The notes beneath the pieces were generated by a model, which searched no databases, was not told the origin of the DNA, and saw nothing but the letters and a program-made list of their open reading frames with translations. 64,000 nucleotides of DNA, taken from NCBI RefSeq assembly GCF_000330705.1, contig NZ_ANAM01000008.1:620001-684000 (forward strand), read 5' to 3'. Made by a program: the position numbers and the translations under genes. This document shows, one piece after another, positions 19,537 through 43,757 of the stretch. How positions within the stretch are numbered: the stretch's first letter is position 1; the number at the start of each line of letters is the position of its first letter. The stretch is from Salinicoccus carnicancri Crm. Lineage in GTDB: Bacteria > Bacillota > Bacilli > Staphylococcales > Salinicoccaceae.

Positions 19537-19565
19537 TTGACTTTCAGATGGAGTACTGATATCAT
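19537..19565 (+). promoter_or_regulatory. Promoter of the pheA leader transcript
   Basis: TTGACT at 19537-19542 and TATCAT at 19560-19565 are 17 bases apart. Transcription from here would give a leader of about 280 nt before pheA. Confidence 0.55.
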
Positions 19566-19598
19566 TTGTTACAATCTTAATTGAATTGAGTGATACTT

Positions 19599-19658
19599 AT
19601 GTCAGACACATGCATCCATACTCAATTGAACACTTTCTTTTTCAGCGATTTTAGATAG
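19599..19658 (+). CDS. Candidate Phe-rich leader peptide of pheA, 19 residues
   Basis: A 19-codon frame starting at ATG 19599 and ending NTFFFSDFR before TAG. Four of the last seven residues are Phe, including three consecutive codons TTC TTT TTC. It lies about 30 bases after the proposed promoter and just ahead of a hairpin and two terminators upstream of prephenate dehydratase, the layout of an amino-acid attenuation leader. The ribosome site (GAGTG at about 8 bases) is weak. A stem AATTGAGT/ACTCAATT (19584-19591, 19620-19627) partly encloses the start codon. T-richness alone could produce some Phe codons, so translation needs proof. Confidence 0.45.
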   Translation: MSDTCIHTQLNTFFFSDFR

Positions 19659-19668
19659 CGTCTATATT

Positions 19669-19707
19669 CCATCGTGGGTATAGGCGGCATGCATATATCT
19701 ATGATGG
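19669..19707 (+). promoter_or_regulatory. 14-bp leader hairpin (possible anti-antiterminator)
   Basis: CCATCGTGGGTATA (19669-19682) pairs with TATATCTATGATGG (19694-19707) over 14 continuous pairs, three of them G-U, with an 11-base loop. Its 3' arm overlaps ATGGCTGATTT (19704-19714), a near-copy of the 3' arm of the next terminator that can pair with that terminator's 5' arm at 19732-19743. Forming this hairpin would therefore favour termination. Confidence 0.6.
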
Positions 19708-19732
19708 CTGATTTGAACACGCAATTTTTCAA

Positions 19733-19770
19733 AATCCGGCCATGGGCAATCTGAATGGCTGGATTTTTTT
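19733..19770 (+). terminator. Attenuator terminator 1 in pheA leader
   Basis: AATCCGGCCAT (19733-19743) and ATGGCTGGATT (19755-19765) form an 11-bp stem with one G-U pair and an 11-base loop, followed by seven T. It lies inside the pheA 5' leader rather than after a gene, so it probably works as an attenuator. Confidence 0.8.
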
Positions 19771-19784
19771 CATTACCTTTTTGA

Positions 19785-19826
19785 CCATTCGGGTGCCTCC
19801 TGCAGGCGGGTCCGGATGGTTTTTTA
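19785..19826 (+). terminator. Attenuator terminator 2 in pheA leader
   Basis: CCATTCGG (19785-19792) and CCGGATGG (19812-19819) form an 8-bp outer stem (one T-G pair) around an inner GCCT/AGGC hairpin, followed by six or more T. It ends less than 30 bases before the pheA start. CTGAATGG in terminator 1 (19751-19758) can pair with its 5' arm. Confidence 0.7.
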
Positions 19827-19853: not shown

Positions 19854-20708
19854 ATGTTGATTGGATATCAGGGCGTCGAAGGATCATACAGCGAGTTGGC
19901 ATGCAGAAAGTTTGCAGGCGGAACAGAGTATCAAATGAAAGGCTATCCCACTTTCAGGACCCTTGTTTCGGCGATGATGGACGGGGAGCTCGATTACATT
20001 GCACTGCCGGTGGAAAACTCCACAAGCGGTCCGATCACCCGCACCATCGATCTGATGAAATATCTGGAAGTTTCCGCAGTCCGGGAAGTATACATCAAAA
20101 TCGACCACGCACTGATCATGGAGTCCGCCGCGGAAATATCCGATATCACGACCGTCTATTCCCATCCTGAGGCACTCGAACAGTGCTATTCCTATTTGAG
20201 CGAATATCCGAACATAGAAGTCCGGGAATATACAGACACAGCTGAAGCGGTGAAGATGGTGAAAGAAACCGGCGACCCACACATCGCCGGAATCGCAGGC
20301 AGCCATGCCGCCGCTCTGTATGATATGACCGTCATCCGTGAAAACATCAGTGACAACCCACTCAATACCACGCGGTTCCTATTCTTCCGCAGGGGTGTTC
20401 AGGGATCACGGCCCGAAACGAATAAAACATCGCTCTACATCGAATCCGATCACAGCACCGGTTCGCTGAGCGAAATCCTGAATATTTTCAGCCGTCACGG
20501 CATCAATCTGCTGAACCTCACCTCCCGCCCGATCCAGCACAAGCCATTCTCCTACGGATTCTTCATCGATGTCGAAAAAGGCAGGGAAGACTCCGTGCTG
20601 GCCGAGGCATTGGAGGATGTCCGGCATGTGAGCAACTATATCAATATGCTGGGGACATACCAGAAGGGCGAGATTCCATCGTATGAAAAGATGCTTACGA
20701 ATGAGTAG
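19854..20708 (+). CDS. pheA: Prephenate dehydratase
   Basis: A 284-residue monofunctional prephenate dehydratase that converts prephenate to phenylpyruvate in phenylalanine synthesis. The catalytic domain opens IGYQGVEGSYSELA, has PVENSTSGPI near residue 53, and carries the catalytic TRF motif in NTTRFLFF (173-175). A C-terminal ACT domain (about 200-270) for Phe feedback contains LTSRPIQHKPFSYGFF, where the usual ESRP motif reads TSRP. AGGAG precedes the ATG at 8 bases; GTG at 19845 is less likely. The 280-nt leader with a Phe-rich mini-ORF and two terminators suggests transcriptional attenuation by Phe supply. Confidence 0.93.
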   Translation: MLIGYQGVEGSYSELACRKFAGGTEYQMKGYPTFRTLVSAMMDGELDYIALPVENSTSGPITRTIDLMKYLEVSAVREVYIKIDHALIMESAAEISDITTVYSHPEALEQCYSYLSEYPNIEVREYTDTAEAVKMVKETGDPHIAGIAGSHAAALYDMTVIRENISDNPLNTTRFLFFRRGVQGSRPETNKTSLYIESDHSTGSLSEILNIFSRHGINLLNLTSRPIQHKPFSYGFFIDVEKGREDSVLAEALEDVRHVSNYINMLGTYQKGEIPSYEKMLTNE

Positions 20709-20773: not shown

Positions 20774-20804
20774 AAATAAGCCCTCCCGGCCGGGAGGGCT
20801 TATC
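20774..20804 (-). terminator. Terminator of the RND pump operon
   Basis: ATAAGCCCTCCCGG and CCGGGAGGGCTTAT form a perfect 14-bp stem with almost no loop. TTTTTG follows on the minus strand. Confidence 0.82.
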
Positions 20805-28868: not shown

Positions 28869-28888
28869 AGTATTATTCTAAATTAAAG

Positions 28889-28958
28889 CACTCATATAAT
28901 AGCAGTAATATGGTCTGCAAGTTTCTACCGGACGCCGTAAATGTTCCGACTATGGGTG
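28889..28958 (+). ncRNA. Purine riboswitch aptamer, guanine class
   Basis: Closing stem P1 is CACTCAT/ATGGGTG. The core holds ATAATAGC and AATATGG, then AAGTTTCTACCGGACGCCGTAAATGT in the family's order, and ends CCGACTATG. The base equivalent to position 74 is C (28950, before TATG), which selects guanine or hypoxanthine over adenine in known members. The expression platform is the terminator at 29005-29059. It controls the xpt-pbuX operon, turning it off when guanine is plentiful. Confidence 0.93.
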
Positions 28959-29004
28959 GGCAAAATACGGACGGATTTGAATGTACCCGTGTACATTCTC
29001 CTTT

Positions 29005-39775: not shown

Positions 39776-41494
39776 TCAAAATAGATAGTAACGCTGTCCT
39801 AAAGGCACTTCATCAACAGGGTCGCACGTCAGTACCTCTCCGTTTATTTTCACTTCATATGTCTGCGGGTCCACATCTATATCCGGTGTCTCCGAATTCA
39901 GCTTCATATCCTTCTTAGTCAATTCGCGTATACCATGGACAGGAAGCACAAGCTTCTCAAGTGCCAGTTTCCCTTTAATGTCGTTGTCGTATGCTGTCTG
40001 TGAAACAAAAGTGATTGAACTGTTGGTTAACCCTTTGCCGTAAGCTCCGAACATGCGGCGATAGACCATCGGCTGAGGTGTCGGTATCGTTGCATTTGGA
40101 TCTCCCATCAAACTCGATACCGCCATACCGTTTTTCAGGATCATCTCAGGCTTCGCTCCAAAGAATTTTGGATCCCAGATTACAAGATCTGCGATTTTCC
40201 CTACTTCGATCGATCCCACATAGTCTGATATTCCGTGTGTAATGGAAGGATTGATTGTATATTTCGCAACATAGCGTTTTGCGCGGTTATTGTCTCTGTG
40301 TTCATGGTCACCTTCCATCACACCGCGCTGTTTTTTCATCTTATGTGCGGTCTGCCATGTCCTTGAGACCACTTCACCGATCCGCCCCATCGCCTGGGCA
40401 TCCGAGCTCATCATGCTGAAGACACCCATGTCCTGCAGAATATCCTCGGCCGCAATTGACTCATTGCGGATTCTTGAATCTGCGAATGCTATGTCCTCAG
40501 GGACAGAAGGATTCAAGTTATGTGCAACCATTACCATATCCAGATGTTCATCAATCGTATTGATTGTGTACGGAAGCGTCGGATTCGTCGATGCAGGCAA
40601 TACATTCATGTAGCCTGCCGATTTGATCAGATCCGGAGCATGTCCGCCCCCGGCACCTTCTGTATGGTACATATGGATGACACGGTCTTTGATTGCCGCC
40701 ATCGTATCCTCAAAGAAGCCCCCTTCGTTCAGTGTATCCGCATGCAGAGCAATCTGTACATCGAATTCATCAGCCACTTCCAGTGCCCTGCTTATGACTG
40801 ACGGCGTTGCTCCCCAGTCTTCATGGACTTTCAGACCGATGGCACCGGCCATGATCTGTTCAGCCAGCGGCCCCCTGTCAGCTGCATGACCTTTCCCGGT
40901 AAGTCCTGCGTTTATCGGCAGTCCTTCCAAAGCACCGAGCATTCTTTCAATATGCCATTTACCCGGTGTTGCCGTTGTTGCTCTCGATCCTGCTCCCGGT
41001 CCTGCACCGCCACCGATTATAGTGGTCACTCCCCCTGTCAGCGCAACATCTACCTGGTCGGGGTTTATAAAGTGAACATGGGTGTCTACTGCTCCTGCAG
41101 TAATGATTTTTCCTTCTCCGGAAATCACTTCTGTGGATGCACCCACTATGATATCGACCTGATCCTGCACCAGTGGGTTTCCAGCTTTGCCGATGCCTGA
41201 AATCTTACCATCGCGAAGCGCAATATCGGCCTTGTATATTCCTGTATAATCCAATATGACCGCATTGGTAATGACTGTGTCAGGGACCCGTTCATCCTCT
41301 TCCCTCATAATGGTTGGATGCTGGCCCATACCGTCACGGATTACTTTACCCCCACCAAAAACGACTTCCTCGCCATATTTTGTATGATCTTTTTCCACCT
41401 GTATGAATATATCCGTATCCCCGAGACGTATCGAATCCCCCGTCGTCGGACCGTACATCTGGGAATACTGTTCCCTGGACATTTTAAAACTCAT
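39776..41494 (-). CDS. ureC: Urease alpha subunit (catalytic)
   Basis: A 572-residue amidohydrolase that hydrolyses urea to ammonia and carbamate at a two-nickel centre. Visible: [11 protein letters not shown] (first His pair, near residue 138), [12 protein letters not shown] with the carbamylated Lys, [14 protein letters not shown], and [19 protein letters not shown]. The mobile active-site flap, usually VCHHL(D/N)P, here reads VAHNLNP: the Cys is Ala (codon 40523-40525, residue 324), the catalytic His is kept (325), and the second His is Asn. The start ATG shares a base with the ureB stop (TAATG). It follows ureA and ureB in the operon. Confidence 0.95.
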
Positions 41495-43651: not shown

Positions 43652-43757
43652 CATCTTATCTTCCAGACCAAACGGTCTGATGGATTTGGCACAGTATCAC
43701 TCTGACCTGCTGCCGAGGTTTCACCGGGCCATGTCCCTCCGCCTCTCTGGATAAAAG
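43652..43757 (-). ncRNA. SAM-I (S-box) riboswitch aptamer
   Basis: Reading the minus strand, the P1 stem is TTTTATC/GATAAGA. Between them come AGAGAGGCGGAGGGA, then GGCCCGGTGAAACC with CGGCAGC, then GTGCCAAATCC and a final hairpin CAGACCGTTTGGTCTG, all in the S-box order. The strong terminator at 43612-43646 completes the expression platform. Known logic: SAM binding gives termination. Confidence 0.93.

Follow-up and report, generated by a model that had tools for sequence, protein, structure and literature searches.

A predicted phenylalanine leader-peptide attenuator ahead of pheA in Salinicoccus and its re-coded relatives in Bacilli

Main finding

The leader ahead of pheA in Salinicoccus carnicancri Crm is very probably a ribosome-mediated transcription attenuator that senses charged tRNA-Phe and belongs to a family in Bacilli whose members have been re-coded for different aromatic amino acids. 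A preliminary description of the window (the whole stretch of DNA that was analysed, 64 kb) had read this leader as a Phe-rich leader peptide with an attenuator. Conservation, tests of the pairings and the existence of paralogues whose leaders are re-coded now back that reading, and the sequence observation at the pheA leader is real and stronger than was first supposed.

Layout of the pheA leader

All features of the leader lie on the + strand. A consensus scan placed a promoter at 19537-19565 (10 of 12 positions; -35 TTGACT, 17-nt spacer, extended -10 TG..TATCAT), and its -35/-10 region is aligned across Salinicoccus relatives in the leader alignment. A probable Shine-Dalgarno sequence, GAGTGAT (19588-19594), is weak here (3 of 6 to AGGAGG) and was assigned from the relatives, several of which have GGAG at this position. 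The 19-codon leader peptide ORF ahead of pheA is present as had been proposed: it runs from ATG to TAG at 19599-19658, has a conserved frame and stop, and encodes MSDTCIHTQLNTFFFSDFR* (asterisk, stop codon), ending NTFFFSDFR, with the FFF codons at 19635-19643 and a fourth Phe codon at 19650-19652. The regulated gene, pheA (19854-20708), encodes a prephenate dehydratase with an ACT domain (PF00800, PF01842). Its product scored 209 bits against PRK11898, slightly below the cut-off of 219, was the single match in the genome, and is 99% identical to the protein of Salinicoccus sediminis SV-16 and 67-93% identical to those of seven other Salinicoccus records.

The RNA forms a chain of six segments in which the pairings 1:2, 3:4 and 5:6 compete with 2:3 and 4:5, with two terminators. 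Segment 1 (UCAGCGAUUUUAGAUA, 19642-19657) consists of the last codons of the leader, for Phe-Ser-Asp-Phe-Arg-stop, and starts inside the last FFF codon. By duplex prediction and covariation it pairs with segment 2 (19696-19714) to give a lower helix, 19642-19657/19696-19711, in which 19642-19646, 19648-19650 and 19652-19657 pair with 19707-19711, 19703-19705 and 19696-19701, respectively. This helix encloses stem A (19659-19686), a hairpin found by folding and covariation. A 14-bp hairpin at 19669-19707, noticed in the preliminary description, forms as claimed when 19660-19715 is folded in isolation; it pairs the 3' arm of stem A with segment 2, and so excludes stem A. The same description held that ATGGCTGATTT (19704-19714), in the 3' arm of this hairpin, could pair with the 5' arm of a terminator, and duplex prediction places this pairing at 19732-19743, within segment 3 (19731-19743). 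The terminator itself was also located correctly: terminator 1 is the 3:4 hairpin, 19731-19767, with a U run up to 19770 (-17.3 kcal/mol). New here, along with the lower helix, are terminator 2 (19783-19826), which is the 5:6 hairpin at 19783-19821 followed by a U run (-20.3 kcal/mol), and a 10-bp pairing (-13.8 kcal/mol) between 19749-19758 of segment 4 (19749-19767) and 19785-19794 of segment 5. This 4:5 pairing would explain why the loop AATCT of terminator 1 is kept.

One caveat of the preliminary description falls away with this layout. A gap of 17 bases between the Phe codons and the first hairpin had been taken to mean that a stalled ribosome would not simply mask that hairpin, but the regulating helix starts at 19642, inside FFF, so a ribosome on FFF would mask segment 1. 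In classic attenuators, too, segment 1 is covered by the ribosome that waits on the regulatory codons.

Folding of the whole leader is only modestly better than that of dinucleotide shuffles (z -2.1; 3 of 200 shuffles equally good), and the case is therefore carried by comparison. A possible further hairpin at the leader start, 19580-19631, pairs ATTGAATTGAGTGA with TACTCAATTGAAC; in 29 of 34 leaders its own arms outperformed arms from other species, but against shuffled arms the advantage was only weak (mean z -1.0). This hairpin could restrict re-initiation on the leader.

Beyond the leader, a strong 12-bp hairpin (20776-20803) lies between pheA and a converging RND permease gene and is possibly a terminator shared by the two. 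Rfam matches elsewhere within the window include a purine riboswitch (28872-28972, +), a SAM riboswitch (43653-43757, -) and RF02514 5_ureB_sRNA (41048-41341, +, 58.9 bits), the last of which may merely reflect conserved urease coding sequence. RF04312, the "trpB ncRNA motif", scored 28.4 bits in the window against a cut-off of 59.

Conservation and pairing tests

At the DNA level, 16 of 40 related genomes, the own genome included, gave a match. One, in genome G034, was dropped as a 21-base chance match; the 15 credible matches comprise 12 of the own genus and 3 of a second genus in the family. The leader frame is kept in all 15 aligned genomes, and the peptide ends Q[LS]N.FFFS[YDH]FR*, with departures to LFF (L022), FFI (L023) and FI* (L019). 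Codons in the N-terminal part vary freely, and the Phe codons swap synonymously between TTC and TTT from species to species. Conservation of the Phe codons in homologous leaders, on which the preliminary description had made its reading depend, is thus present.

For tests of pairing, 34 representatives were chosen by eye from 62 loci, with near-copies removed. These 62 were drawn from 103 loci after leaving out repeats (L001-L008, L041-L048, L050-L055 and L059), an Actinomycete locus (L009), a 21-base chance match (L025), T-box loci (L026-L040) and a weak RF01743 match (L073). In a swap test, the arms of each helix were compared with arms taken from other species, and own arms were better for 1:2 in 33 of 34 leaders, for 2:3 in 28, for 3:4 in 33, and for both 4:5 (p 6e-11) and 5:6 in all 34; the 34 leaders are related, so that this and the other p-values overstate independence. 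Six of eight non-adjacent control pairs were flat, own arms being better in 12 (2:5), 17 (1:6), 15 (2:4), 18 (1:3), 14 (3:5) and 20 (4:6) of 34 leaders. The other two, 1:4 (23/34, p 0.025) and 3:6 (24/34, p 6e-4), were not, perhaps through the mutual likeness of segments 1, 3 and 5 and of segments 2, 4 and 6. The arms had been extended into the loops following an initial run that gave 27/34 for 2:3 and 29/34 for 4:5, and for one leader (L063) the start of segment 1 was off by one base in both these tests and the mask folding described below. Against shuffled arms, 99% of shuffles were beaten by 2:3 in only 26 of 34 leaders and by 4:5 in only 27. Two terminator-like hairpins were present in 34/34 leaders, a count that holds partly by construction (the best hairpin was taken, and a U-rich tail was required for 5:6).

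Column covariation was counted on a sequence-based alignment of the 34 leaders, a comparison across relatives that had been proposed at the outset, and double changes exceeded the shuffled mean in all three helices examined. In the lower helix, 95.9% of cells were paired, with 26 double-changed cells compared to a shuffled mean of 6.9; the values were 90.2% and 33 compared to 10.5 for stem A, and 89.7% and 28 compared to 9.6 for the alternative hairpin, while slid versions of the helices used as a control paired in 26-51% of cells. Some measures were weak: for the alternative hairpin, the observed number of double-changed pairs was reached by 27 of 500 shuffles and that of pair types by 109 of 500, and for stem A the number of pair types was reached by 238 of 500. 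The loci were gathered with models (R1, described below, and RF02863) that contain the pairs of the lower helix and stem A; the alternative hairpin is absent from the pairs of R1 and, as judged from the printed alignment, from those of RF02863.

Ribosome position and the sign of regulation

These elements suggest a mechanism in which RNA polymerase would transcribe the leader as a ribosome translates the 19-codon peptide. With ample Phe, the ribosome would reach the UAG and either leave or sit there; segment 2 would then pair with segment 1 (or with the 3' arm of stem A), 3:4 and 5:6 would form, and transcription would stop at either of two tandem terminators. When Phe is short, the ribosome would pause on the FFF codons and cover segment 1. 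Stem A would form, 2:3 would pair, segment 4 would be free for segment 5, neither terminator would arise, and pheA would be expressed. The ORF, the terminator-like hairpins, the conserved alternative pairings and the match of codons to genes are read directly from the sequence; we infer from them that the leader is translated, that the ribosome stalls, which sign the regulation has and that two terminators act in series. Any such mechanism requires transcription-translation coupling, which is disputed in Bacillus subtilis.

The effect of the ribosome was modeled by equilibrium folding of the RNA through segment 3 with the ribosome-covered bases blocked. With a ribosome on the aromatic codons, segment 2 paired chiefly with segment 3 in 30 of 34 leaders; this was so in 2 of 34 when no ribosome was placed and in 16 of 34 when one stood at the stop. 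The four misses were L017, L022, L100 and the S. carnicancri pheA leader itself (L010), where segment 2 paired with segment 3 at 0.40-0.43 and with the middle region at 0.48-0.49; the alternative hairpin competes in this folding. Early, co-transcriptional folding of stem A would favor the switch in this leader. The sign, which the preliminary description had called open, is thus now predicted, with Phe shortage leading to read-through; for the S. carnicancri leader, which itself misses in the mask folding, this prediction depends on what its relatives do and presupposes that stem A is the first to fold.

When the ribosome sits at the stop, segment 2 shifts to the middle region (mean 0.41, as compared to 0.35 for segment 3), and this behavior is also what would be expected if the peptide itself were the sensor. 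Free Phe or Tyr, together with the nascent chain, would then halt the ribosome at the stop, where it would mask stem A and so favor the alternative hairpin and termination. Across the 15 close leaders the peptide end FS[Y/D/H]FR* hardly varies, Q[LS]N upstream of it is found again in many distant leaders, and the alternative helix favored by a stop-bound ribosome is conserved. However, Ser-Tyr-Phe-Arg-stop doubles as segment 1, so RNA pairing accounts for its conservation; several leaders finish FSYF* or YSYY*; and the identity of the aromatic run tracks the downstream gene, as codon sensing predicts. We consider an arrest peptide quite unlikely as the sensor, and favor attenuation governed by charged tRNA-Phe.

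A family of re-coded leaders in Bacilli

R1, a covariance model built from the 15 leaders, picked up additional copies in these genomes that precede another gene, plus more distant relatives; at E 0.001 it matched 24 of 33 genomes of the family and 26 of 157 of the order. A second model, built from the 34 leaders (R2), matched 35 of 398 genomes of the class, in 12 of 146 genera. One of these matches, in genome G508, looks like a false match within coding sequence and has no leader, which leaves 34 genomes and 11 genera as credible. At E 0.05, R2 matched 30 of 33 genomes of the family, and among 249 genomes sampled from the phylum it gave two matches, the own genome and another of the same class.

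The S. carnicancri genome has three copies, with the runs FFF (pheA), FYF (DAHP synthase, contig 1) and IWY (SNF transporter, contig 9). The DAHP synthase copy (L084, G000:C1:212150-212259) has the leader MLLTKQQQHNRFYFSYF*. The copy ahead of the SNF-family sodium-dependent transporter (L176, G000:C9:20982-21078) has the leader MFRTINVNIWYSYRM*; its model match is weak (E 0.005), with a plain leader and hairpins, and its codons hint at a Trp/Tyr substrate for the transporter. Among representatives of the family, profiles identified the downstream genes as those for DAHP synthase, shikimate dehydrogenase, a TrpX-type ABC substrate-binding protein, transketolase, an aminotransferase and a sodium-dependent (SNF) transporter.

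Of 21 pheA leaders, 2 have Tyr or Trp in the run, against 62 of 62 non-pheA leaders (83 loci, Fisher 8e-17), a comparison in which the codon runs of 21 later-fetched loci were entered by hand and the gene classes of 62 loci were assigned by script from the first residues, transporter being the default class, with 10 + 6 proteins checked by profile. In the 62-locus main set with repeated tails removed, the counts are 2 of 18 and 26 of 26 (4e-10). The off-pattern pheA leaders are two YFF, two DFF, one LFF and one FFI. The two YFF exceptions, L060 and L062, rank with the pheA leaders that have diverged most, a pattern compatible with a shift in specificity from an ancestor with Tyr/Phe codons. 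As far as comparison of the sequences goes, the scaffold in this Bacilli family carries Phe, Tyr/Phe or Trp/Tyr codons depending on the downstream gene. In one genome (G276), leaders of the same type, RYYYFGWFS* (L143) and FYYYFGFFR* (L144), stand ahead of transketolase and aminotransferase genes, suggesting a broader aromatic regulon there.

Part of this family has been recorded in Rfam under another heading. RF02863, "Enterococcus sRNA 2410", is homologous to the pheA leader by alignment in the lower helix and stem A, and differs in being typed as an sRNA gene (Gene; sRNA) rather than a cis element. It scored 30.9 bits (E 0.0019) against the pheA leader, below its gathering cut-off of 61, 55.9 bits against a paralogue in the same genome, and 64.8 bits, above the cut-off, against a Salinicoccus leader ahead of DAHP synthase (L069). 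A search with RF02863 matched 34 of 398 Bacilli genomes, in 9 with a score above the cut-off. If its type were correct, the short terminated transcript would have a regulatory role of its own in trans and pheA would be read through at a fixed low level; a terminated transcript would indeed accumulate. Yet at 30 of 30 fetched RF02863 loci a short ATG ORF ends just within the match, the model itself starting only at the final bases of the aromatic run (e.g., NNYYFSYFR*, NFYFSYFR*, SYYYSYFR*), and the gene downstream is aroE or encodes a TrpX-like transporter or DAHP synthase (assigned from first residues, with 4 of the 30 genes profile-checked). The antiterminator pairings also pass the swap test, and the leader codons agree with the downstream gene. 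A trans-acting sRNA is therefore very unlikely, and these observations suggest that RF02863 is an attenuator leader that could be reclassified as cis-regulatory.

T-boxes and other leader models

The preliminary description saw no T-box core at pheA, and no T-box was found: an Rfam search at gathering thresholds gave no RF00230 match in the 64-kb window, and the T-box core GGTGGNACCGCG gave 19 matches with at most two mismatches, none of them in the pheA leader. The genome has 15 T-box matches, one of which is above the Rfam cut-off. Genes downstream were identified by profile; matches ahead of pheS and tyrS are below the cut-off (E 2e-11 and 6e-12, respectively), and that ahead of trpD is above it. 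The cell thus probably senses Phe via a T-box at the synthetase and via the leader peptide at pheA. RF01743 (leu-phe_leader) was tried and rejected, with a best E of 4.4 in the own genome and matches in 0 of 398 Bacilli genomes, while the Lactococcus lactis control does match.

A ligand-binding riboswitch or divergent T-box built on a 45-nt tract, CAGCYATTTTAGATAGCGTCTATATTCCATCGTGGATATAGGCG, that hardly differs among the 15 close leaders is scarcely credible, since across the 34 representatives the tract shows compensating pairs and loops of varied length and hence no visible fixed aptamer core, and the pheA leader gives no T-box match even in a genome that has such matches elsewhere.

Implications

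The pheA leader and its relatives would add an aromatic leader-peptide attenuator family to Bacilli, where T-boxes are considered the rule, and suggest that both systems may serve one amino acid in one genome, with a T-box match at pheS and a leader peptide at pheA. An Rfam "sRNA" would become a predicted cis-regulator, and the leader codons would predict substrates of poorly characterized transporters. With the same scaffold carrying different codons ahead of different genes, the family offers a natural series for how leader codons set amino-acid specificity, which would also bear on whether transcription-translation coupling in these bacteria suffices for attenuation.

A broader and more speculative proposal, improbable as a whole, is that all these leaders descend from a single leader-peptide attenuator that dispersed among Bacilli. 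A handful of codon changes on an otherwise constant RNA scaffold would have given it Phe codons at pheA, Tyr/Phe codons at aroE and at the genes for DAHP synthase and TrpX-type transporters, and Trp/Tyr codons at the gene for the sodium-dependent transporter. It would be a codon-programmable counterpart of the T-box reading three ribosome positions, and its nearly invariant peptide end may also arrest the ribosome at the stop with free aromatic amino acid.

Comparison with known systems

Leader-peptide attenuation is itself an already known mechanism. No description of the present family was found among the matches listed from open-license PubMed Central literature, a search that covers open-license papers rather than subscription ones. 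RF01743 is a leader-peptide attenuator of a Firmicute. PMC2864571 lists that element for Leu/Phe in Lactococcus lactis. Ribosome-mediated His leader-peptide attenuators that replace T-boxes are predicted in Bacilli and other Firmicutes in PMC2965389 and PMC9413887; they differ in having His codons and his genes. The uORFC-13-1 motif ahead of aroF, a proposed leader-peptide attenuator that PMC8632094 gives for Acholeplasma and environmental DNA only, likewise has a terminator and a uORF containing a Phe codon before a DAHP synthase gene, a likeness by description. T-box leaders, which PMC2494555 reports for tyrosine biosynthesis genes of the B. cereus group, share antitermination on amino acid shortage in Bacilli, whereas the pheA leader is without the T-box core or an Rfam match.

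There is also a parallel in design with the pheA, trp and his attenuators of E. coli and Salmonella, which share a short ORF with codons of the pathway amino acid, an antiterminator/terminator choice and a segment 1 within the coding region. Enteric leader-peptide attenuators carry regulatory codons and alternative antiterminator and terminator structures, and the his leader, like the pheA leader here, is a chain of six segments. Unlike these, the Salinicoccus pheA leader belongs to another phylum, has an extra alternative helix that may read a stop-bound ribosome, and carries U runs on both the 3:4 and the 5:6 hairpins.
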